A model generated the notes under the pieces. It was not told the DNA's origin, made no database searches, and worked only from the letters and a program-made list of their open reading frames with translations. From Sphaerobacter thermophilus DSM 20745 (GTDB taxonomy: Bacteria; Chloroflexota; Chloroflexia; Thermomicrobiales; Thermomicrobiaceae): a stretch of 64,000 nt of DNA. The position numbers and the translations under genes are program-made. Where the stretch lies: the NCBI RefSeq assembly GCF_000024985.1, contig NC_013523.1, positions 2,170,001 to 2,234,000 on the forward strand. Direction: 5' to 3'. Every line of letters starts with the position of its first letter. The first letter of the stretch is position 1. This document shows positions 6,108 through 24,477 of the stretch, piece by piece.

Positions 6108-9100
6108 TCAATCTTCCGAGGGATCGGTGACGTGGATCTCGAAGCTAGTCTCAGCCAGCACACGCTCCGGGGTCTCGCTCAGGTCCACCAACCGCAGGGT
6201 CACGGTGTAGATTCCGGCCGGCGCCGAGGCGTGCGACTGCACCGTGAACGTGGTGTCAGCGGTGTAGCCGTTGGGCATCGGGAAACCGCTCGACGGTCCC
6301 CAGGAGCCTTCCCACCGGCCGTCAACGCACGCGAACGTGTCGTTGATGCCCTGCGGATCCTCACCGTCGACCGCCGTGATGTTGAACACGTCGGTCCACG
6401 AGTCGCCTGCACCGCACGCCTCCGGCTCCGGCGGCTTGACGATGATCCGGAACAGAGCCTGCGAGATGTCGAAGCCGGTGCGGTTCGTGGCAGTGGCCTC
6501 GATCTCGAACTCATCACCCTGGTCAACGCTGGTGGGGCCACTCGCGCTGACTTCGGGCGCTACCCACGTCTTGGTCGCGGTGCCCGTGCCCCGGCCGTCC
6601 GCCGTGGCGGTGATGGTGTCTTCACCCGCGTTCTCGCCCGTGTAGGTGCACTTGATCTGGCCGTTCTCGTCGGTCTGCTGGGACGCATCGCTGTAGGTGA
6701 ACGTCGCACCCGCGTTCGGGCCATCACCCGTACGGACTTCGCACGTCACCGCCGCGCCCGGCACCGGGTTGTTCGCATCCGATCCGTCGGTGACCGTGAC
6801 GGTCACAGTGTGCTGCGTGCCGAGCAGGTTCGTCGCCTCTTCAGGCGTCACGGAGACCACGCGGTAGAGCCCCGTGACCCACTCCTTGGTGCCCGTCTCG
6901 GTCTCATCAGCATCGACCACACCATCGCGGTCAAGATCGACCCAGACCTCCAACTGGTCCGTGCCGAGTTCGCCGTCATCGTTGGTGTAGCTGAGCGCCG
7001 CCTGGCCGTTGGCACCGGTCGTCCCCGACACCTCCAGGCCCGCGTTCGGGCCGCTCGTCACGCGGAGCAACGCCCGCACGTTCGGCGCCGGATCACCGAA
7101 CAGGTCCCGCACCGTCACCGTCACGGTGTGCGACACCGGATCGCCGTTCTCGTCGTTGACCGGGTTCGGCGACTCACCCCAGTCCACGTCGAAGTCCACG
7201 GCAAACCGCGGCGTCGCCTGCGGCGTGACCGCCAGGTTGAAGACGGCCGAGCCGTCGCCGGCAACCTCGTAGTTGACGTTGTTGGAGACGCCCAGCAGCG
7301 CGCCGTCACCCACCACGCCGACCACTGCCGCGCCGGTGAAGCCCGCCGGCATCTGGCTGTAGTTCAGCGTGTACAGCGTCGCCCCACTGCCGGCCGGGAT
7401 CTGGATGGTAAGCGGATCCTCGGCGTCGGTCGCCGCGACCGTCGGCGCGACCGGCACGCCGGCGGAGTCGAGGAACTGCACCCAGGCCTCAACGCTGCTG
7501 TTCGCGTCGCTGTTGAACAGGTTGATGCCCGAGGTGTCGCCGGTGCCCGTCTGCGGGTTGCCCTTCTGCACCAGCGGCAGAGCGAGCATCGACAGATAGT
7601 AGACGCGACCGAGCTGGGTGTCGCGCAGGTCGATCTCGAAGCCGCCCTGCAGCGACCGGCCGGCCGCGTAGGACATCGCGTGGCCCTCACCCTGGCCGCC
7701 GAGGTACTTCACCTCGTCGATCGCCGCCGCCAGCGGCGCCGTGCCCTGGATGCGGACCGCCGTGATCTGGTTCTCACCGATACCGAAGGAGCCGGTCGCC
7801 GGCGTGTAGACGTACTCCATGGCCCGCGACGGGATGGTGCGGGTCTCCGCCGCCACCACGTTGCCGGCGTAGTTGTAGTAGGTCACCGAGACCTGGTTGG
7901 TGGCGCTCGACAGGTTGGCGATGTTGATCCCGGTGTTCCAGCCGTTGTAGTCCCGGAACACCAGCGGGCCGTACTTCAGCGTCGGGCTCACCACGGGGTT
8001 ATCGGTCCGCGGCTGGGCCACGGTGGTCAGCATCATCTCGGTCGACGGCTTGTTGCGGAAGGCCATCGCCACGACCGCGCGGGTCGCATCGATCCAGACC
8101 GAGCCGACTTCCTCGTCGGGGAAGCCCGCGTCCTCGCGCAGGTCGACCACGATCGACTCACCCGGACCCAGGGTCTCGCCCGACAGCAGCGCCACGCTCG
8201 GCCCGGCGAAGCCCTGACCGCCCGCGGCGTAGAAGGTCGCGTTCACCGAGTTGTTCGCACCCGAGACGTTGGTGATGACGATCGCGGTGTTCCAGCCGTT
8301 GTTCGTCTGGACGATCGGGATCACCCAGCGGGACGGCGCGTCGAGGAAAGCACCGCCGACGCTCGCCAGGAGCACGTCAGCCAGCGGGATCGCGCTGTAG
8401 CCGTCCACCATCTCGGTGTTTGCCGAGGTCCGCGGGCCGACCGTGCCGACGGTGTGCTTCTCAGCACCCGCGATCCGCGGGAGCGGGATGTCGTCGCAGT
8501 AGTACAAGGTCACCGAGTACGTGCCCTGGCCCGCCGCAGGCTCAGCGCCATCCGGGCTCCAGTCGATGTACAGGGTGTTCCCCGCGTACCACCAGTTGTA
8601 GTCCCGGCCCGCGCGGAAGCCGTCGATGGCGATGGCGGCCGGCTCAGTGGCGATCCCTACGATCTGGTCGGTCGTGTTCTCCGGGGTGCCACGGGACCCG
8701 GACGTCTGGTCGATTTCGCACCGGATGACCCCAGCGTTGATCAGGTCGGCGGGGTTCGCCCACCATGCCGCAACCACGACGCCGCCGCCGCCCGGCTTCC
8801 CCTCCTCCGGGTCGTACGCCGGGAGGCCCAACTGCGCCGCGGTCCAGGTCTGCGACGCCCGCGGATTGAGCGTGATCGAGGTCAGCTCGTTGCCCGCCGC
8901 GTCGTACACTTCCACGTCGACCGCAAACGGCTAGAGGTTCTGCACGGTGATCGAGCCGGTGACCCCCTCGACTCCTCCGAGCGTGTCATTGTGGGGAACC
9001 CACGGGAAGAAGATCTCGAGTTCGCCCGGATCATCGGGCGCTGCGGCCGCCGGAACGATGGCACCCACGAAGAGGCTAGAGATCAGCCCCAACGCGAGCG

Positions 9101-9840: not shown

Positions 9841-11760
9841 TTAGAGGACCGACTCTTCGGGCTCCTCGAAGTCGAAGACCCAGGTCGGAGCGAGGTTGTA
9901 GACGGCCGAGCCGTCGCCGGCAACCTCGTAGTTGACGTTGTTGGAGACGCCAACCAGCGCACCGTCACCGACGACACCCACGACCGCCGAGCCCTGGAAG
10001 CCAGCCGGCATCTCGCTGAGGCTCAGCGTGTAGATCGTCGCACCCGCGCCCGCCGGCATCGGGAACGACAGCGGCTTCTCAGCATCGGTCGCGTCGACCG
10101 TCGGCGCAACCGGCACCCCGCTCGAGCTCAGGAACTGCACGTAGGCCGTCACGGCAGCGTCGCTCGGGTTGAACAGGTTGATGCCGGAGGTGTCGCCGTA
10201 GCCGGTGGTCGGATTGCCCTTCTGCACCAGCGGCAGACCGAGCATCGACTCGTAGAGCACGCGCTCGCCGGTGTCGATCGCGTCACCACCGAACTGCGCC
10301 CGGGCAGCCGCGTAGGTCATGGCGTGCCACTGGTCCTGGCCCTCGAGGTACTTCACCTCGTCGACAGCCACCGCCAGCGGCGCCGAGCCCTCGATACGGG
10401 CCGAGGTGATCTGCCGCTCGGCAAGACCCTCACTGCCGGTCGCCATGGTGTAGATGTACTCCATGGCCCGCGGCGGGATGTTGACCGTCTCCGCGTGCAC
10501 CACATTCCCGGCGTAGTTGTAGTACGTCACCGTGACCCGGTTGTTGTCGCTGGACAGATTGGCGATGTTGATGCCCGTGTTCCAGCCGTTGTAGTCGCGG
10601 AAGACGAGCGGACCGAACTTCAGCGCCGGGCTGTTGATCGGATCATCGTTCCGCGGCTGGGCCAGCGTGGTCAGCATCATCTCGGTCGACGGCTTGTTGC
10701 GGAAGGCCGCCGCCACGACCGCGTGGGTCGCATCGATCCAGACCGAACCGACCACCTCATCCGGGAAGCCGGCATCCTCGCGCAGGTCAACGGTGATCGA
10801 CTCACCAGGTGCCAGCGTCTGGCCCGAGAGGAGCGCGACGCTCTCGCCGGCCGAGCCCTGGCCACCCGCGGCGTAGAAGGTTGCGTTGACCGAGTTGTTC
10901 ACGCCCGAGACGTTGGTGATGACGATCTCGGTGTTCCAGTGGTTGTTCGTCTGGACGATCGGGATGATCCAGCGGGACTGCAGGTCCAGCCACGCCTCCG
11001 GGAAGGAGGTAACGCCGGTCGCCAGGATCAGATCCTGAACCGGGAGCGCGGTGTACCCGTCGACGATCTCGGTATTCGCCGAGGTCCGCGGACCAACCGT
11101 GCCGGTCGTGTGCTTCTCCACACCGGCAATCCGCGGATCCGGCAGATCAAGGTCGGGGCAGTTCAGCAGATCGACTTTGATCGGCGTGTTGTAAGCCGGC
11201 TCGGTGCCGTCCAGGCTCCAGTCGATGTAGAGGATCCCGTTCGCAACCCACCAGTTGTAGTCGCGGCCCTCGACGTAGCCCACGACCTGGATCTTGTTCC
11301 AGTCCTCGCCGTAACCGTCCGGCACGGCGAACTCGTCGGTGGTGTCCGCGGGCTTACCGCGGGTGCCGAGGGTCACAGGGCCCTCACCAACCACGTCGCA
11401 GATCTCGGCGAAGTCAAACCAGTGCGCGACGGCGATCACACCGGAACCCGGCTCATCGATGCCGAGCTGCGCCGCGGTCCAGGTCTGCGACGCCCGCGGG
11501 TTGAGCGTGATCGAGGTCAGCTCGTTGCCCGCCGCGTCGTACACATCGACGTGGACCGAGAACGGCTCGAGGTTCTGCACCGTCACCGAGCCGGTGATGC
11601 CGTCGATGCCCGCCAGGGAATCATTGTTCGGAACCCAGGGGAAGTAGATCGCCCCCTCCCCGGGTTCTTCCGGCGCTGCTGCCGCCGGGGCGATGGCACC
11701 CACGAAGAGGCCCGTGATCAGCCCCAGGGCCATCGCGAGGTGGAGAAACTTCTTTCTCAC
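9841..11760 (-). CDS. Secreted multi-module beta-sandwich protein (intact paralog)
   Basis: The product is 639 aa from a GTG at 11758-11760 with GGAG seven bases upstream. A signal peptide (residues 1-29, MRKKFLHLAMALGL...AAAAP) is followed by about four related modules. They are near 38-118 (YFPWVPNNDS...ITGSVTVQNLEP), 265-368 (HWNTEIVITNVSG...), 384-475 (GWNTGINIANLSS...) and 505-612 (GDTSGINLFNPSD...). Each has a W-N-T/G-I-x-I-x-N signature followed by an x-Y/F-Y-A-x-G strand, suggesting repeated extracellular beta-sandwiches. The family name and ligand are unknown. A cell-envelope or adhesion role is inference. Paralogs lie at 6108-9125 (broken) and 19743-21707. Confidence 0.85.
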   Translation of the reverse strand: MRKKFLHLAMALGLITGLFVGAIAPAAAAPEEPGEGAIYFPWVPNNDSLAGIDGITGSVTVQNLEPFSVHVDVYDAAGNELTSITLNPRASQTWTAAQLGIDEPGSGVIAVAHWFDFAEICDVVGEGPVTLGTRGKPADTTDEFAVPDGYGEDWNKIQVVGYVEGRDYNWWVANGILYIDWSLDGTEPAYNTPIKVDLLNCPDLDLPDPRIAGVEKHTTGTVGPRTSANTEIVDGYTALPVQDLILATGVTSFPEAWLDLQSRWIIPIVQTNNHWNTEIVITNVSGVNNSVNATFYAAGGQGSAGESVALLSGQTLAPGESITVDLREDAGFPDEVVGSVWIDATHAVVAAAFRNKPSTEMMLTTLAQPRNDDPINSPALKFGPLVFRDYNGWNTGINIANLSSDNNRVTVTYYNYAGNVVHAETVNIPPRAMEYIYTMATGSEGLAERQITSARIEGSAPLAVAVDEVKYLEGQDQWHAMTYAAARAQFGGDAIDTGERVLYESMLGLPLVQKGNPTTGYGDTSGINLFNPSDAAVTAYVQFLSSSGVPVAPTVDATDAEKPLSFPMPAGAGATIYTLSLSEMPAGFQGSAVVGVVGDGALVGVSNNVNYEVAGDGSAVYNLAPTWVFDFEEPEESVL

Positions 11761-13734: not shown

Positions 13735-14415
13735 ATGGCCATCATCCCGCAGCAAGATCAGGAGTACCTGAAGGAGCTCTTCGCCGAGAAGCTGGAGCAC
13801 CCGGTCACACTCCGCTTCTACACCCAGCGCCAGTCGGTGCTGAGCGTACCGGGGCAGGAGTGCGGCACCTGCTCCGACACCCACGCCCTGCTGAACGAGC
13901 TGGTGGCGCTCTCCGACAAGCTCACGCTGGAGGTCCGCGACTTCGTCACCGAGCAGGAGCAGGCGAAGGCGGAGGGGATCGAGGAGATCCCGGCGATCGT
14001 GCTGGAGGGGCAGAACAAGGGCACCGTGCGCTTCATCGGCGTCCCGGCCGGCTACGAGTTCGCCACGCTGATCGAGGATCTCATCGACGTCTCGCGCGGT
14101 ACCACGTCGCTTCAGCCGTACAGCCGCGAGGTGCTGGCCGCGCTACAGAACCCGGTCCACATCAAGGTCTTTGTCACCCCTACCTGACCTTACTGCCCGA
14201 GTGCCGCCAGGCTGGCGCACATGATGGCAATCGAGAGCGACAAAGTCACGGCGGACGTGATCGAGGTGAGCGAGTACCCCCTCATGGCCCAACGCTACCG
14301 GATCTACGGCGTGCCGAAGACCGTCATCAATGAGTCGATCGAGCTGGAGGGCGCGCGACCGGAGGAGGCAATGGTCGGGGCGGTCGAAGCGGCGTCCCGT
14401 AGCGCCGCGTCCTGA
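13735..14415 (+). CDS. Protein disulfide oxidoreductase (two thioredoxin folds), predicted selenoprotein with Sec at UGA 14185-14187
   Basis: From ATG 13735 (AAGGGAG upstream) the frame encodes 226 residues if the in-frame TGA at codon 151 is read as selenocysteine. The N-terminal thioredoxin fold has C43-G-T-C46. The C-terminal fold has VFVTPT-U151-P-Y-C154-P...AH, followed by the cis-proline segment YGVPKTVI. Thermophilic two-domain PDOs have CPYC at this place and are about 226 aa long, so the TGA replaces exactly the nucleophilic cysteine and the frame continues with full family similarity to 14415. The enzyme would form or reduce disulfides in the cytosol. A bSECIS-like hairpin follows the TGA, and selB lies 8 kb away. 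Automated calling would split this into a 150-aa protein and a C-terminal fragment starting at ATG 14221. The alternative is a nonsense pseudogene. Confidence 0.88.
14201..14220 (+). promoter_or_regulatory. Candidate bacterial SECIS hairpin
   Basis: GTGCCGCC-AGGCT-GGCGCAC folds with GTGC pairing GCAC and GCC pairing GGC (one bulged C, optional A-U closing pair). This leaves an apical loop containing GG. The loop begins about 22 bases after the UGA, within the spacing known for bSECIS elements (roughly 16-37 bases), and a loop guanine is the feature SelB recognises. It lies inside the coding region, as expected in bacteria. Confidence 0.75.
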
Positions 14416-16108: not shown

Positions 16109-16120
16109 GCGAGCGCAAGA

Positions 16121-16243
16121 CCTTCGGGGCAGGGTGAGGCGCCTGGCGCCAATTCCCGACCGGCGGTATAGCCCGCGAGCGGCGAGAGCCGCAGGATCCG
16201 GTGAAACTCCGGGGCCGACGGTATAGTCCGGATGGGAGAAGGT
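16121..16243 (+). promoter_or_regulatory. FMN riboswitch (RFN element)
   Basis: The conserved RFN segments occur in order: GGGGCAGGGTG, AATTCCCGACCGGCGGTA, AGCCCGCGAGC, GGATCCGGTGAAACTCCGGGG, CCGACGGTATAGTCCGGATG and GGGAGAAGG. FMN binding to this aptamer lowers expression of riboflavin genes. With the terminator at 16287-16313 it forms a transcription-attenuation switch for ribD-ribE-ribB-ribH. Confidence 0.97.
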
Positions 16244-16286
16244 ATGCGACGGCCGATCCGGCCGTGCGAACCTATCTTGCCACCGC

Positions 16287-16313
16287 AACCCGAGGGCTTG
16301 CCCTCGGGTTTTT
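16287..16313 (+). terminator. Riboswitch-controlled intrinsic terminator
   Basis: AACCCGAGGG (16287-16296) pairs with CCCTCGGGTT (16301-16310) around CTTG and is followed by a run of five T residues. It lies between the FMN aptamer and the ribD start. It is the expected OFF structure when FMN is bound. Confidence 0.9.
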
Positions 16314-16338
16314 CGTGTCAACGAAGCGGGGGCGAGCC

Positions 16339-17502
16339 ATGGTGACCACGGACTGCCGGGTCGTGCCGGCAACCGACCTCCACTGGATGCGGCGGGCACT
16401 CGACCTCGCCGCCAGTGCCCGCGGGCGCGTCGCGCCCAACCCCGCCGTCGGGGCCGTCCTGGTCCGCGACGGACGCCTGGTCGGCGAGGGAGCCACCGAA
16501 CCGCCGCCCGGAGCCCACGCCGAGATCGTCGCGCTCCGACAGGCAGGCGCCCTCGCCCGCGGCGCCACCCTCTACGTCACTCTCGAACCCTGTGCCCACT
16601 ACGGGCGAACGCCACCCTGTGTCGATGCACTCATTGCAGCCGGGATCGCCCGTGCCGTCGTGGCACTGCGCGACCCCTACCCGGCGGTCAACGGGCGGGG
16701 ACTGCGTCTCCTGGCCGAGGCCGGAGTGCGGGTCGAGCTGGGCCTAGCCGCCGGTGCGGCCGCTGCGATCAACGCCGGGTTCCTCAAGCGGGTGCACTGC
16801 GGCCTGCCGGAGGTGACGGCCAAGTTCGCGGTCAGCCTCGACGGCAAGATCGCCACCCACACCGGCCACGCGCGGTGGATCACGGGCGCCGAGGCGCGGC
16901 GCGAGGGCCACCGGCTGCGCGACACGCACGACGCGATCATGGTCGGTATCGGCACGCTCCTGGCCGACGACCCGCTGCTCACCACCCGCCTCCCGCCCGA
17001 GGACTGCGGGGCCGGCGGCCCGCATCACCCACTCCGCGTCGTGGTCGACAGCCAGGCGCGGACGCCGCCGGGTGCCGCCATGCTGCAGCCGCACATGCCG
17101 GGTCGAACGCTGCTCGCGACCACCAGTTCGGCCCCACCCGAGCGCATCGCGGCGCTCCGCGCGGTGGGGGCCGACGTGGTGACGCTCCCGGATCACGGCG
17201 GACGAGTCGACTTGCACGCACTGCTGCGTTGCCTCGCGGCGCGGGGAGTCAACAGCGTGCTGGTCGAGGGAGGCGGGACGCTGCTCGGCGCACTCTTCGA
17301 CGCCGGATTGATCGACCGCGCGGTCGCGTTCATCGCCCCGGTCATGGTCGGCGGGCGGGACGCGCCGGGGCCACTGGGTGGCGAGGGCGTGGCCACGATG
17401 GACGCGGCGTGCCGCCTCCGCGAGGTCGAGGTGTGCCAGGTCGGGAGCGATCTCATGGTGCAGGGCCGGGTGCAGCCGATACCCGGACTGGAGGAGGTGT
17501 GA
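16339..17502 (+). CDS. ribD: Bifunctional riboflavin biosynthesis deaminase/reductase RibD
   Basis: The product is 387 aa from ATG 16339, the first start after the riboswitch terminator. The N-terminal cytidine-deaminase-like domain has the zinc and catalytic set H60-A-E62, then P-C85 and C94 in TLYVTLEPCAHYGRTPPC. It deaminates 2,5-diamino-6-ribosylamino-pyrimidinone phosphate. The C-terminal reductase domain (about 150-387) has KFAVSLDGKIATHTGHARWITG and LVEGGGTLLGALF, typical of NADPH-dependent RibD reductase. First gene of the riboflavin operon. Its TGA overlaps the ribE ATG by one base, indicating translational coupling. Confidence 0.97.
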   Translation: MVTTDCRVVPATDLHWMRRALDLAASARGRVAPNPAVGAVLVRDGRLVGEGATEPPPGAHAEIVALRQAGALARGATLYVTLEPCAHYGRTPPCVDALIAAGIARAVVALRDPYPAVNGRGLRLLAEAGVRVELGLAAGAAAAINAGFLKRVHCGLPEVTAKFAVSLDGKIATHTGHARWITGAEARREGHRLRDTHDAIMVGIGTLLADDPLLTTRLPPEDCGAGGPHHPLRVVVDSQARTPPGAAMLQPHMPGRTLLATTSSAPPERIAALRAVGADVVTLPDHGGRVDLHALLRCLAARGVNSVLVEGGGTLLGALFDAGLIDRAVAFIAPVMVGGRDAPGPLGGEGVATMDAACRLREVEVCQVGSDLMVQGRVQPIPGLEEV

Positions 17503-18140
17503 TGTTCAGCGGCATCGTCGAGGAAGTCGGCACCGTGGCCGCGCTCGGCCGGGTCGGAGGCGACGTAGCGCTCACCATCCGCGGCCGCACGGTGCTGGAG
17601 GGCACACGGCTCGGAGACAGCATCGCCGTCAACGGGGTTTGTCTCACCGTTGCTGACCTGGACGCGGGCCACTTCGTCGCCAACCTGCAACCGGTGACGC
17701 TCCGGCTAACGAATCTGGGCGACCTCAGCCCCGGCTCCCCGGTAAACCTGGAGCGCTCGGTCATGGTCGGCGGGCGGATCGGCGGTCACTACGTCCAGGG
17801 GCACATCGACGGCACCGGCCGGGTCGTCTCGCAGACACCGGACGGTGCAGCGGTCGTGGTCCGCATCGCGACACCGCCGGAGATCCATCGCTACCTGGTG
17901 CCGCGCGGCTTCATCGCCGTCGACGGCGCCAGCCTGACGATCGTGGAGGTTCTGCCGGACGGCTTCACCGTCTCGCTGGTGACCCACACCCAACACCACA
18001 CGACGCTGGCGCACAAGCGGCCCGGCGAGCGGGTCAACCTGGAGGTGGACATCATCGCGAAGTACGTCGAGCGGCTCTGCGGTCCGTCGCCCGGCGCGGG
18101 GGTCGACCTCGACCTGCTACGACGGGCGGGGTTCGCCTAG
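17502..18140 (+). CDS. ribE: Riboflavin synthase (alpha chain)
   Basis: The product is 212 aa and begins [12 protein letters not shown], the invariant start of riboflavin synthase. Two lumazine-binding barrels are visible. The first is about residues 1-95, with [13 protein letters not shown]. The second is about 97-190, with [15 protein letters not shown] and [14 protein letters not shown]. The enzyme dismutates two 6,7-dimethyl-8-ribityllumazine molecules to riboflavin. An AGGAGG sequence precedes the ATG inside the end of ribD. Confidence 0.97.
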
Positions 18141-18154
18141 AGGGAGGAGGCATC

Positions 18155-18847
18155 GTGCCGCTGGCGACAATCGAGCAGGCCATCGCCGCGCTGCGCGCGG
18201 GCCGGTTCGTCATCATCGTCGACGGGCCGGACCGGGAGAACGAGGGCGATCTCTGCATCGCCGGACAGTTCATCACACCGGAAGCGGTGAACTTCATCGT
18301 GCGCGAGGCGCGCGGGCTCCTCTGCGCAGCGATGGCGCCGGAGTGGGTCGACCGGCTGCGCCTGCCGCTCATGGTCGACCCGGCGTCCAACTCGGCACCC
18401 TTCGGCACCGCCTTCACCGTGTCGGTGGAGGCACGCCAGGGGGTCACGACCGGCATCTCGGCGCACGACCGGGCCCGGACGATCCGCACCCTTGCCGATC
18501 CGGCCTCCACCCCAGCCGACTTCGCCATGCCCGGCCACGTCTTCCCGCTCCGCGCCCGTCCCGGCGGGGTGCTGGAGCGACCGGGGCAGACCGAGGCGGC
18601 GGTCGACCTGGCACGCCTGGCCGGGCTGCACCCGGTGGTGGCGATCTGCGAGATCATGGCGGACGACGGGACCATGGCCCGCCTCCCCGAACTGGAGCGC
18701 TTCGCCACGCGCCACGACATCCCGATCATCAGCGTCGCCGACCTCGCCGCCGTTCGCCGGGCACAGGCAGACCGCCACCCGGCCGGCGTGGCAGACCACA
18801 GCCCCGCGGGGACCGCCGCCCGCGAGGGTACGGCGTACGGGTGCTAG
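18155..18847 (+). CDS. ribB: 3,4-dihydroxy-2-butanone-4-phosphate synthase (stand-alone RibB)
   Basis: The product is 230 aa from a GTG at 18155 with a strong AGGGAGGAGG upstream. The catalytic acidic loop [11 protein letters not shown] (about residues 24-34) and the HDRARTI and [10 protein letters not shown] segments are diagnostic. The enzyme converts ribulose 5-phosphate to the four-carbon riboflavin precursor. Many bacteria fuse this domain to GTP cyclohydrolase II (RibBA). Here the protein stops after the DHBP domain with a short low-similarity tail ([13 protein letters not shown]...), so the GTP cyclohydrolase must be encoded elsewhere. Confidence 0.95.
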
Positions 18848-18923
18848 CGGCGGCGCAGCGCCCACACAACCGCACGGGGGCACCAGGGCACCCCGGTACG
18901 CAGCAGGCGTAAGGAGAGAGACG

Positions 18924-19406
18924 ATGCGGACGATTGAGGGTATGTTGACCGGGCGCGGGCTGCGCATCGGTATGGTAGTCGCACGCTTCAATGAGTTCGT
19001 CACCTCGAAGCTCATGGAGGGCGCGCTGGACGCGCTGGTGCGGCACGAGGTCGATCCCGACGCGATCGACGTGCTGTGGGTGCCGGGCTCGTTCGAGATC
19101 CCGCTCGCGGCCAAGCGCATGGCCGACTCCGGGCGCTACGACGCGGTGGTCTGCCTCGGCGCCGTGATCCGGGGCGCAACCCCGCACTTCGACTACGTCG
19201 CGTCCGAGGTCGCCAAGGGGGTGGCGAACGTATCGCTCGCCACCGGCGTCCCGGTCATCTTCGGGGTGCTCACCACCGACACCATCGAGCAGGCGATCGA
19301 GCGCGCCGGCACCAAAGCAGGCAACAAGGGCTTCGACGCCGCCGTCACCGCGATCGAGATGGCCAACGCCCTGCGGCAACTCGACACCGTCGCAGCGAGC
19401 GTCTGA
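18924..19406 (+). CDS. ribH: 6,7-dimethyl-8-ribityllumazine synthase
   Basis: The product is 160 aa from ATG 18924, preceded by TAAGGAGAGAG. Family signatures are [48 protein letters not shown] and [23 protein letters not shown]. It condenses the RibB product with the ribitylamino-pyrimidinedione and usually assembles into pentamers or icosahedral capsids. Last gene of the riboflavin operon, 76 bases after ribB. Confidence 0.97.
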
Positions 19407-19742: not shown

Positions 19743-21707
19743 ATGCCATTGCACACCAGACTGCTTCGCCTCGCGGTGGCGCTGGGGCTGGCCACCGCGC
19801 TCTTGACGGCTGCCATCAGTCCCGCCGTCGCTGATTCCGCGGATGCGGTGGTGGACCGCATCTACTTCCCCTGGGTGCCGCACCACGACACGATCGCCGG
19901 GGTGGCCGGTGTGACCGGCGCGATCATCGTGCAGAACGTGGAGCCCGTCGCGGTCGATGTGGTGGTCAAGAACACCGTCGGACAGAAGCTCGCCGGGCTC
20001 ACGCTCAATCCGCGCGCATCGCAGGTCTGGACCGCCGCACAACTGAAGATACCGCGGGAGAATCCCGAGGAGGGCACCCCCGGCGGGGCCGGGATCGTCG
20101 TTGAGGCAACCTGGACTGACCCAAAGGAGGTCAACCAGATCGACCAAAGTGTCTGCGTGGAGCGCGATATTCCGTTTAGTAGGAACCCCTCACGTAGCTT
20201 CGATGTCCTCCAGAAGCTGACCCTGACGTCCCCCGTTCTCATCGGCAAGATCTACCAGCCGGACTTCGTCTTCCCTGCCGATAGCTACGTCGCCCGGTGG
20301 GACGGAAACGGCACGCTTGCCGTCGACTGGAGCCCGAGCGGGCCGGAGCCGGCAGCAAACGTAACCTATCGGGTGAAGGTGTACGAAAAGTGCCCGCCCC
20401 CTCGGATCGCCGGAGTCGAGAAGCACACGGTCGGCACTCTGTTCGGCCCGCAGACGACGAGCACTACCGAGATGGTGGACGGTTACAGCGCCGTGCCGCA
20501 CAGCGACCTGAAGCGTGCAGCACAGGGCGGGGAGACACTGGAGGAGCAGATCCGCTGGGTCGTTCCCATCGTGCAGACCAGCAGCGGCTGGAACACCGAG
20601 ATCTTCATCACCAATGTTTCCCAGAACGACACCACGGTGAACGCCACGTTCTATCCGGCTCAAGGCCAGGGTGTGGCTGGCCGGGGAACCCTTATCCTCG
20701 GCAACTACTGGCTGCCCGCGGGGGAGAGCGTGTCGGTCGACCTCATGGCCGACACCCCGCTGCCAGAGGGGCGCGTCGGGTCGCTCTGGGTGGACGCGAC
20801 AGAGGACGTGGTCGTCGCGGCGTTCCGGATGAAGCCGGAAACGGGCATGATGCTAACAACCGTCGCTCAGCCGCGCTACGATGAGCCCACGAATGGGGAC
20901 ACCTGCGACCAGTGCGTTGCGTACGGCCCCCTGGTGTTCCGCGACTACAACGGCTGGAACACGGGGATCAACATCGCGAATCTGTCCAGCTTCTATAACC
21001 GGGTCACGGTGACCTATTACAACTACGACGGCAACGTGGCGGCAACTGATTTGCTCACCATCCCGCCACGGGCGATGGAGTACGTCTACACCCCGGCCAC
21101 GGGCAATGTCGGTATCGGCGACAGCCAGATCACGGCGGTGCAGATCGTGGGCAACTACCCACTGGCAGCGGCGATCGACGAGGTGAAGTACCTCGCCGGG
21201 CACGGTCAGGGTCACGCCATGTCGTACCCAGCCTCGGGCGACCTATCGGGTTTCGAGCCGAATGGGGGTGTTCCCGTGCTCGACACCGGCCGCTGGTTCT
21301 ACGAGCGATTGCTGGCACTGCCGCTGGTGCAGAGGGGGATCACCGACACCGGCACCGGCGACACCTCGGGCATCAACCTGTTCAACCCTGCCCCGAACGA
21401 CACCGTCGTGGCCTGGGTGCAGTTCGTCGACTCGGCCGGGGTGCCGGTCGCGCCGACCGTAACCGGGACCGACGCGGAAGCGCCGTTCAACCTGCCGCTC
21501 GGCCCGCATGCCGGGGCCACCCTCTATACCCTCCGGTACAGCGAGATGCTCGACGGGTTCATCGGCTCCGCTGTGATCGGCGTGGTGGGAGACGGCGCGC
21601 TCGTCGGTGTGTCGAACAACGTCAACTACGCCGTGGCGGGCGACGGCTCGGCTGCCTTCACCCTCACCCGCGCCGATACCGTGTACGACCCGCGCCCGCC
21701 CCGATGA
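19743..21707 (+). CDS. Secreted multi-module beta-sandwich protein (third paralog)
   Basis: The product is 654 aa from ATG 19743 (GGAAGGA upstream). The signal peptide MPLHTRLLRLAVALGLATAL...AVA is followed by the same module order as the 9841-11760 protein: RIYFPWVPHHDT...GAIIVQNVEP, GWNTEIFITNVSQ, YNGWNTGINIANLSS, GDTSGINLFNP, ending GVVGDGALVGVSNNVNYAVAGDG. Two internal cysteine pairs (for example CDQCV near 385) are not shared. It sits 340 bases after the riboflavin operon with its own promoter. A surface role is inferred from secretion and modularity only. The enzyme-like name 'hydrolase' is not supported. Confidence 0.85.
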   Translation: MPLHTRLLRLAVALGLATALLTAAISPAVADSADAVVDRIYFPWVPHHDTIAGVAGVTGAIIVQNVEPVAVDVVVKNTVGQKLAGLTLNPRASQVWTAAQLKIPRENPEEGTPGGAGIVVEATWTDPKEVNQIDQSVCVERDIPFSRNPSRSFDVLQKLTLTSPVLIGKIYQPDFVFPADSYVARWDGNGTLAVDWSPSGPEPAANVTYRVKVYEKCPPPRIAGVEKHTVGTLFGPQTTSTTEMVDGYSAVPHSDLKRAAQGGETLEEQIRWVVPIVQTSSGWNTEIFITNVSQNDTTVNATFYPAQGQGVAGRGTLILGNYWLPAGESVSVDLMADTPLPEGRVGSLWVDATEDVVVAAFRMKPETGMMLTTVAQPRYDEPTNGDTCDQCVAYGPLVFRDYNGWNTGINIANLSSFYNRVTVTYYNYDGNVAATDLLTIPPRAMEYVYTPATGNVGIGDSQITAVQIVGNYPLAAAIDEVKYLAGHGQGHAMSYPASGDLSGFEPNGGVPVLDTGRWFYERLLALPLVQRGITDTGTGDTSGINLFNPAPNDTVVAWVQFVDSAGVPVAPTVTGTDAEAPFNLPLGPHAGATLYTLRYSEMLDGFIGSAVIGVVGDGALVGVSNNVNYAVAGDGSAAFTLTRADTVYDPRPPR

Positions 21708-21761: not shown

Positions 21762-22559
21762 CTAGGAGTTGGTACGCAGCGGCCAGAAGCGCTCGGCCGG
21801 GCGGCCGGAGCCGACGGCGCGGGCGTAGCGGCGGGTGGACTCGGCCGGATCGCCCTGGTGGCGGAAGATGACCGGGAGCTGGGTGCGGTAGCAGAGGATG
21901 GCGCGCACCCGCGCTTCCAACTGGACCGGAGTGAGGAACCGCGTCTCGGCCGGACCCGCGGCGACCTCCGCAGCACGCGCCTGGAGCGCGGGCGCACCGG
22001 CCGGGTCTCCGGCGTAGGGGAAGTCCTCGTACGCCAGCACGCGGCGGCCCATCCCGGCCAGCCGCTGTCCCGCGAGCGTGGCGATCTGGTGGTCCACATG
22101 GTTGCCCAAGCCGAGCGGCACGTAGACCGTCGCGCCCGGTGCGGCCAGCGCGGCGACGGCCGCGGTGAGGTCGTCGACCAGCGGGCGGTCGTCCGGGTGG
22201 AGAGGGCCGAAGAGGTCGTCATCCGAGGTGTAGCGCGTGCCCCGGTAGATGGCGTCGTGGAAGTCGAGCCAAAGCGCTTCGGCTCCCAGCGCGGCAGCGG
22301 CGCACGCCTCCTCCGCGCGACGGATGCGCACGGCGTCGTCCGGTCCGACCCCCCAGCGCTCGTGCTGGAACCGCGCAAAGTCGCTGAGCGGCCCGGTCGG
22401 CGCGCCGCCGAAGCAGGTGACGATCAGCGGGCGCGCGCCGCCTTCGGCGAAGGAGGCCACGGTCCCGCCGCAGGAGAGTGCCACGTCGTCGTAGTGCGGA
22501 GCGAGGAAGACCGGGCGTGGCTCAGGCGGAGTGGTAACGGACACGCTCGTCCCCCACAC
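21762..22559 (-). CDS. PIG-L/LmbE family N-acetyl sugar deacetylase-like protein
   Basis: The product is up to 265 aa. The zinc-site motif APHYDDVALSCGG (about residues 20-32) is the family's PHxDD signature, and the GNHVDHQIA segment carries the third zinc ligand. Family members remove acetyl groups from GlcNAc-inositol, mycothiol or bacillithiol precursors and other amino sugars. The substrate here is unknown. The start overlaps the end of selB by up to 38 bases. A GTG at 22542-22544 giving MSVTTPPEP is an equally plausible start. The overlap indicates co-transcription with selB. A thiol-cofactor role would fit the redox neighbourhood but is speculation. Confidence 0.85.
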   Translation of the reverse strand: MWGTSVSVTTPPEPRPVFLAPHYDDVALSCGGTVASFAEGGARPLIVTCFGGAPTGPLSDFARFQHERWGVGPDDAVRIRRAEEACAAAALGAEALWLDFHDAIYRGTRYTSDDDLFGPLHPDDRPLVDDLTAAVAALAAPGATVYVPLGLGNHVDHQIATLAGQRLAGMGRRVLAYEDFPYAGDPAGAPALQARAAEVAAGPAETRFLTPVQLEARVRAILCYRTQLPVIFRHQGDPAESTRRYARAVGSGRPAERFWPLRTNS

Positions 22560-24414
22560 GCCGGGTCACGCGCTGGTGATCGAGGTACTCCAGCACGGCC
22601 TGGGCGTACTTGCGGCTGGACCCGAAGTGGTCGCGGAACTGGGCCAGTGTGATCCGGCCCTCCCGGTCGATGATCTCCAGGACCTGCCGCTGGATCTCCT
22701 CGAAGGTCTCGCGGGCGAAGATGATCCCCTCGTCGACCCGCACCACCTCGCCCGTCTCGGCCAGCGCGATGGCGACCTCCGGGTCGATCCCGAACTCGGC
22801 CGGGCCGGGCGGCGTGTAGGGCGCCGCCCGCAGTGCCGCGAGGTAGCGGTCGATCTTCTCCCGCTGCTCCGGGGTGAAGGTAATCTCGTGGCCGGGAAGG
22901 CGCAGTGTCTCGCCGTCGTCCACCAGCGCAGCCGCGGAAGCCGCGTGGGCGACGATCTCCTCGAAGACACGAGCAGGCAGACCGGTCCGGCTGCGGACCT
23001 CCTCCTTGGCCATGCCGCGGCGGAGCGGCTGGCGCCGGTGGTAGGACTCGAGCAGGGCCTGGATGTCGCCGGTGATACGCTCCAGCGTGTCGGCACGGAT
23101 CAGGTAGCCCGCCGGGCCGCCACGACCGAGCGCCACCACCTGGCCCTCCGCGACCAGCCGGTCGATCGCCGCCTGCACATCGGACTCCGGCAGCGCCACG
23201 CTCCGCACGAGCGCGCGGCGCTCCTGCGGCCCGGCGGCGAGTGCCTGGGCGACGATCTCCTCCGGCGCCCCGGAGGCAAGCACCTCGAGCGCCTGGATGA
23301 CCTCGGGCCGGAAACGACGGTGGCGACGTGGGTGCGCATCGACGACCACCCCGCCGCCGATCGTCAGGCTGGGCGAGGGGCGCCGCACGATGAAGCGGTC
23401 GCCTCTGACGGCCACCAGGGGCGTTGGGAAGCGGAACTGCACCCAGCCCTCTTGCCCCGGCTCGATCCGCTCGGCATCGAGCAAGGTCACCCGCGCCAGG
23501 GTCTCGGCCGAGCCGAGGAAGAAGTCCACCTCGTCGTTCTGCTCCAGGGCGACCGGTGAGTCAGGCACGAGCCGCAGCCGGGCATCCAGCAGGCGCGTCG
23601 GCGTCAGCCAGCCAGGGACCGTCAGCACATCGCCTCGGGCGATCTCTTCGACCGAGATCCCCGCCAGGTTCACCGCGGTGCGAGAGCCCGGCTGTGCGCG
23701 TTCCACCTTCGACCGGTGGCTCTGCAGCCCGCGCACGCGCCCACGCCGCCCGGCCGGGAGGATCTCGACCTCTTGACCGATCTCCAGCGGCCCGCCGAGC
23801 AGCGTCCCCGTCACTACCGTGCCGAAGCCTGCTACGGTGAAGACCCGGTCGATCGGCAGCCGCGGCCGACCGGTTTCGTTGTGCGGCGGGACGGCATCCA
23901 GCAGTGCATCAATGGCGGCGCGCAGGTCGTCCAGCCCCTCCCCGGTCACCGCCGACACCGGCACCACGGGCGCTCCGTCCATCACGGTGCCGCGCACCGC
24001 CTCGCGAATCTCCTCGACCACCAGATCCCGCCACTCGCCATCGACCAGGTCGGTCTTGGTCAAGACAATCAGTCCCCGCTCGATCTGGAGGAGATCCAGG
24101 ATCGCCAGGTGCTCGGCCGTCTGCGGCATCGGCCCCTCGTCGGCCGCGACCACCAGCAACGCCGCGTCGATTCCGCCCACACCTGCGAGCATGTTCTTGA
24201 TGAAGCGCTCGTGGCCCGGCACGTCGATGATGCTGATCTGCCGCCCGCTGGGCAGCTTCATCCAGGCGAAGCCCAGGTCAATCGTCATCTCCCGTTCCTT
24301 CTCCTCGCGGAGCCGGTCCGGGTCGATGCCGGTCAGGGCTTTCACCAGCGTGGACTTACCGTGGTCGACGTGGCCGGCCGTGCCGACCACGTAGGTCAGG
24401 GACTGCATGCTCAT
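22522..24414 (-). CDS. selB: Selenocysteine-specific elongation factor SelB
   Basis: The product is 630 aa from the ATG at 24412-24414 (GAGG five bases upstream). An upstream ATG at 24432 would add six residues, and one at 24408 would remove two. GTPase motifs: G1 GHVDHGKST (14-22), G2 in EREMTIDLGF, G3 DVPGHE and G4 TKTD, all as in SelB rather than EF-Tu. Two beta-barrel domains follow, then winged-helix repeats (from about 370, ending RITLAQFRDHFGSSRKYAQAVLEYLDHQRVTRRVGDERV) that bind the SECIS hairpin. SelB delivers Sec-tRNA to UGA codons. Its presence implies a working selenocysteine system, and one predicted client lies at 13735-14415. selA, selD and tRNA-Sec were not seen in this window. 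Confidence 0.96.
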   Translation of the reverse strand: MSMQSLTYVVGTAGHVDHGKSTLVKALTGIDPDRLREEKEREMTIDLGFAWMKLPSGRQISIIDVPGHERFIKNMLAGVGGIDAALLVVAADEGPMPQTAEHLAILDLLQIERGLIVLTKTDLVDGEWRDLVVEEIREAVRGTVMDGAPVVPVSAVTGEGLDDLRAAIDALLDAVPPHNETGRPRLPIDRVFTVAGFGTVVTGTLLGGPLEIGQEVEILPAGRRGRVRGLQSHRSKVERAQPGSRTAVNLAGISVEEIARGDVLTVPGWLTPTRLLDARLRLVPDSPVALEQNDEVDFFLGSAETLARVTLLDAERIEPGQEGWVQFRFPTPLVAVRGDRFIVRRPSPSLTIGGGVVVDAHPRRHRRFRPEVIQALEVLASGAPEEIVAQALAAGPQERRALVRSVALPESDVQAAIDRLVAEGQVVALGRGGPAGYLIRADTLERITGDIQALLESYHRRQPLRRGMAKEEVRSRTGLPARVFEEIVAHAASAAALVDDGETLRLPGHEITFTPEQREKIDRYLAALRAAPYTPPGPAEFGIDPEVAIALAETGEVVRVDEGIIFARETFEEIQRQVLEIIDREGRITLAQFRDHFGSSRKYAQAVLEYLDHQRVTRRVGDERVRYHSA

Positions 24415-24477
24415 GGGGACCTCATGGGTCATGTCCTGTTGCAGTGCCGACGCGCTCCGGTCACCAACGCAAACGCG

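Follow-up and report, generated by a model that had tools for sequence, protein, structure and literature searches.

An in-frame TGA in a Sphaerobacter thermophilus protein disulfide oxidoreductase gene probably encodes selenocysteine at the C-terminal redox site

Why would a gene for a redox enzyme that is otherwise intact carry a stop codon exactly at a catalytic cysteine? The question is raised by a gene for a protein disulfide oxidoreductase (PDO) in Sphaerobacter thermophilus DSM 20745, within a stretch of 64,000 nucleotides (contig NC_013523.1, positions 2,170,001 to 2,234,000 of the forward strand; hereafter the window, in whose own numbering all coordinates are given). Our answer, to which we assign a probability of about 0.96 on the strength of sequence comparison, is that the gene encodes a selenoprotein that has selenocysteine (Sec) in place of the nucleophilic Cys in its C-terminal CPYC site, through decoding of the UGA by SelB and a selenocysteine insertion sequence (SECIS). 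The gene, the position of its TGA, the Sec machinery, the conserved hairpin and the conserved coding sequence downstream can be read directly in the DNA, and the elements concerned are these:

13735..14415, + strand: gene for the predicted Sec-containing PDO, 226 residues (from translation, the TIGR02187 profile and PDO structures)
13861..13872, + strand: N-terminal redox site C43-G-T-C46 in the first thioredoxin fold, both Cys present (from translation and the aligned motif table)
14185..14187, + strand: in-frame TGA, predicted Sec151 that opens the C-terminal U-P-Y-C (from translation; same position in 59 homologues)
14194..14196, + strand: resolving Cys154 of the UPYC site (from translation and the motif table)
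14201..14220, + strand: probable bacterial SECIS hairpin, GUGCCGCCA-GGC-UGGCGCAC (from the fold, a freeze of synonymous sites, the contrast between Sec and Cys genes, and covariation)
22522..24432, - strand: selB, the Sec-specific elongation factor, with the winged-helix domains that bind SECIS (TIGR00475, 359 bits; Pfam SelB-wing_2 and SelB-wing_3)

The PDO frame opens with an ATG, just 5' of which stands a ribosome-binding-like AGGGAG, and closes at its own TGA (14413-14415); its translation runs M...VFVTPT*PYCP...AAS*, and the TGA at codon 151 is the sole internal in-frame stop. When read through, the protein matches TIGR02187 at 260.8 bits against a cut-off of 185, with residues 6-219 covering profile positions 2-208/209 and thus the whole model, and it has two thioredoxin folds with the sites C43GTC46 and U151PYC154, the paired CxxC or CxxC-like sites of that family. 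Near full-length phmmer matches to solved structures (1j08, E 3e-41; 1a8l, 6e-40; 2ywm, 3e-37) bear out the archaeal-type assignment made in the original prediction, and in the alignment with solved archaeal PDO chains the first C of the C-terminal CPYC site falls on the TGA. That prediction, made from the sequence alone, had also placed the TGA on this Cys, described one continuous 226-residue protein whose frame stays open past the TGA to its own stop, and located a SelB gene 8 kb away; translation, alignment and the profile matches uphold all of this.

Decoding of UGA as Sec requires dedicated machinery, and a search of the whole genome (3,993,764 bases in two contigs) located it. Besides selB, which lies 8 kb from the PDO gene, the genome holds SelA (527 bits), SelD (380 bits) and a tRNA-Sec (74.1 bits; called tRNA-SeC by ARAGORN, anticodon TCA, that is UCA), so that the search for selA, selD and tRNA-Sec suggested in the original prediction has returned all three, and the complete set expected of a bacterium that makes selenoproteins is present in one genome. 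SelD is a well-known selenoprotein, and selD here carries its own in-frame TGA at the active-site Cys position (ASCAG-U-ASKMGPE), which indicates that Sec is also used elsewhere in this genome. At least nine genomes in the window's family (besides the window's own, G113, G114, G117, G118, G122, G123, G124 and G125) carry PDO and selB on a single contig with about 7-19 kb between them, an arrangement that may be simple shared gene order.

The suggested comparison with homologues covered 158 genomes from the class and 400 from the phylum, with loci read codon by codon. Among non-duplicate PDO genes, the equivalent of residue 151 is TGA in 59 (58 besides the window gene) and Cys in 64, while one further gene, L144, has lost the site; Trp never occurs there among the homologues read. 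A TGA thus stands opposite the catalytic Cys of homologues, as it does in bacterial selenoproteins. The closest named relative, a Sphaerobacter metagenome-assembled genome, has a PDO that is 94% identical and likewise contains the TGA, and two TGA-bearing homologues come from outside the window's order. In all 59 the TGA stands for the leading residue of the C-terminal site; no TAA or TAG interrupts any of these frames ahead of the terminal stop, and the N-terminal site is free of TGA throughout, a pattern that is not chance. The sequence 3' of the TGA evolves as coding sequence, as judged from an excess of differences at third codon positions (by codon position, 0, 3 and 11 between L009 and L011, and 9, 8 and 39 between L013 and L027). 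A thioredoxin-like open reading frame that had been flagged with one TGA (G124:C72, L123) proved on codon-by-codon reading to have no TGA at a site Cys. The small genome G407 has two PDO genes (G407:C4, L106, and G407:C13, L104), both with TGA at the site.

A bacterial SECIS is a hairpin that lies shortly 3' of the UGA and has G as one of its first two loop bases, and sequence comparison within 60 nt past the TGA points to such an element. In the window gene the apical loop, GGC, starts 22 nt past the UGA, and both of its first two bases are G. Codons +7 (GCC), +8 (AGG), +10 (GCG) and +11 (CAC) are invariant in 11 of 11 members of the window's family, compared with 2 invariant degenerate columns out of 90 over the remainder of the gene (Fisher p 6.5e-5). 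The stem takes the form xGCCA-GKN-UGGCx in 42 Sec genes, where G opens every loop and stem positions form 98-100% standard pairs; the outermost pair varies among C-G, G-C, A-U and G-U and is still 98% standard. Cys homologues, by contrast, pair at only 39-62% at three of the five stem positions. When a G-loop hairpin is counted at a threshold of at least -4 kcal/mol, it is present in 56 of 59 Sec genes versus 29 of 64 Cys genes. The remaining 17 Sec genes (L066, L073, L080, L086, L088, L089, L092, L096, L109-L111, L115, L116 and L119-L122) have a different stem, with GU in the loop and a loop start about 17-19 nt past the UGA, and this second layout suggests separate origins of the recoding signal. 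We regard these comparisons as strong evidence for a SECIS, although not as independent evidence. The best natural control for the link between hairpin and Sec is L017, a gene from genome G120 that has Cys at the site and is nested among Sec genes with branch support of 97-98%: in the scan of the 59 Sec and 64 Cys genes it has no G-loop hairpin, and its genome still has SelB and tRNA-Sec.

Could the TGA have a more ordinary explanation? If TGC or TGT had been misread in sequencing or assembly, a one-base difference from a Cys codon would suffice, and an isolated case could be explained in this way, but the identical codon in 59 homologues from many separately assembled genomes refutes the idea, and the conserved hairpin tracks the TGA versions as opposed to the Cys versions; we consider an error vanishingly improbable. 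UGA does normally terminate, and the first domain alone could fold, so one might instead suppose a true stop, with the gene either a pseudogene or a source only of a 150-residue, one-domain product. Yet the 75 codons past the TGA, resolving Cys included, are in frame and coding-like in all relatives, and TGA is the only stop type found and always replaces the one residue, which makes a true stop extremely improbable. To the same small degree we credit the idea that an ordinary amino acid is inserted at this UGA, whether by genome-wide recoding to Trp or Cys or by near-cognate read-through without Sec. Such reassignment occurs in some bacteria, but the terminator of the PDO gene is itself TGA, so that UGA still works as a stop and is not globally reassigned in this genome; neighbouring genes end in TGA as well, a UCA tRNA-Sec and all sel genes are present, and homologues have Cys, never Trp, at the site.

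The selenoprotein reading itself leaves room for the view, voiced in the original prediction, that no Sec PDO had been described and that the protein would be of a new kind. Lists of selenoproteins do not use the name "PDO", and a literature search for PDO with selenocysteine gave nothing relevant, since the family goes by a different name; the short name of TIGR02187 in NCBIfam is in fact PDO_seleno_TRX. The primary paper for the family is reportedly Kryukov & Gladyshev 2004, by attribution in two reviews. The family, as defined in reviews (PMC13188914, Table 1; PMC9312934), was found in Carboxydothermus hydrogenoformans and Symbiobacterium thermophilum in a 2006 survey (PMC1794560) and in Asgard archaea in a 2024 paper (PMC11227280). 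A previously undescribed kind is accordingly very unlikely: predictions of the Sec PDO family date back to the 2000s, and the S. thermophilus gene adds a well-supported member to a kind already known.

Several points weigh against reading the gene as a selenoprotein that works as we propose. The window hairpin, folded as a single sequence, is not unusually stable (z -1.2), so its support comes from comparison. Sec genes and Cys genes each cluster in the phylogeny, such that p-values overstate independence, and the hairpin tests were selected after the alignment had been viewed. The two best thioredoxin-reductase matches in the genome, at 230 and 155 bits, fall below the TIGR01292 cut-off of 343. 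The Sec machinery, the 59 TGA homologues and the hairpin comparison support the reading of a UPYC site with Sec at the attacking position.

From this evidence we infer Sec insertion itself, its dependence on SelB, catalysis, the roles of Sec151 and Cys154, the partners and the route of re-reduction. The product would be a cytosolic-type PDO of two thioredoxin folds, with Sec at the nucleophilic position of the C-terminal site. Sec-tRNA would be made by SelA, SelD and tRNA-Sec, and SelB would bring Sec to the UGA, with the mRNA hairpin directly downstream serving as the bacterial SECIS. The selenolate of Sec151 would attack substrate disulfides and Cys154 would resolve the mixed selenenylsulfide, while the N-terminal CGTC might be a second relay site. 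Re-reduction would probably fall to a thioredoxin-reductase-type flavoprotein, with candidate native flavoprotein reductases encoded at L145 and L146; archaeal PDOs are re-reduced by a thioredoxin-reductase-type enzyme (PMC7278568).

How Sec and Cys came to be distributed among these genes is a further question. On an unrooted tree of 124 proteins, Sec and Cys must have replaced each other at least 15 times, with 9 of these changes forced by well-supported branches, and the changes likely went both ways. In the motif table, the N-terminal CxxC has been lost in Sec lineages (L108, L112-L114, L117, L118) and in a Cys lineage (L030, L035-L044, L141-L143), in each case with the C-terminal site kept, which argues that selection acts on the C-terminal site rather than the other and that Sec there is independent of the N-terminal site. 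The asymmetry proposed in the original prediction, with Sec in one of two redox sites, thus holds for this gene but not as a fixed rule, since several Sec relatives have no N-terminal CxxC. We give even odds to the broader proposal that the C-terminal site of PDO in Chloroflexota has undergone Cys/Sec switching many times, with at least two hairpin layouts (loop start about 22 or about 17-19 nt past the UGA) and with Sec surviving loss of the N-terminal CxxC in some lineages. The literature searched held nothing on wide spread and repeated Sec/Cys exchange of PDO in Chloroflexota, on two hairpin layouts in Sec PDO genes, or on PDO lineages with Sec but without the N-terminal CxxC. If the proposal is true, the C-terminal Sec site suffices by itself as a catalytic centre, and new SECIS elements can arise repeatedly within one gene.

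The predicted Sec PDO is a clean case of a selenoprotein that can be tested, in a thermophile with full Sec machinery, and an annotation that ends at the TGA would miss its main active site. Near relatives hold matched Sec and Cys versions of this two-site enzyme (for example, L017 versus L013 and L025-L027), and this natural series is well suited to the question of what a disulfide oxidoreductase gains from Sec. Elsewhere in the window, a flavin mononucleotide riboswitch (16116-16247, + strand, 98.9 bits) lies 5' of a riboflavin gene cluster (open reading frames 16201-19406), and the three frames at 6108-8915 (-), 9841-11760 (-) and 19743-21707 (+) encode large proteins that resemble one another and begin with signal-peptide-like N-termini. 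Two of the three are 50% identical, and their only domain matches are weak ones, to DUF5719 and immunoglobulin-like domains.

Among known systems, the catalogued member ABB15282.1 from Carboxydothermus belongs to the same NCBIfam family and likewise has one Sec in a UxxC motif, but its host is of a different phylum from that of the window PDO, Chloroflexota. Were its Sec to lie in the N-terminal domain, the C-terminal Sec described here would be a separate variant. The PDOs of archaea and Aquifex (1j08, 1a8l, 2ywm/2ayt) are alike over nearly their full length, with two thioredoxin folds, a CxxC in each half and a C-terminal site of the CPYC type, but have Cys where the window gene has TGA. The N-terminal domain of AhpF (1zyn, 1hyu, 4o5q) shares the tandem thioredoxin folds, with weak but significant similarity, and is fused to a flavoprotein reductase, whereas the window PDO is free-standing. 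Bacterial Sec-containing thioredoxins and glutaredoxins (UxxC) likewise have Sec as the attacking residue of a CxxC in a thioredoxin fold, but are single-domain proteins, unlike the two-fold PDO of S. thermophilus.
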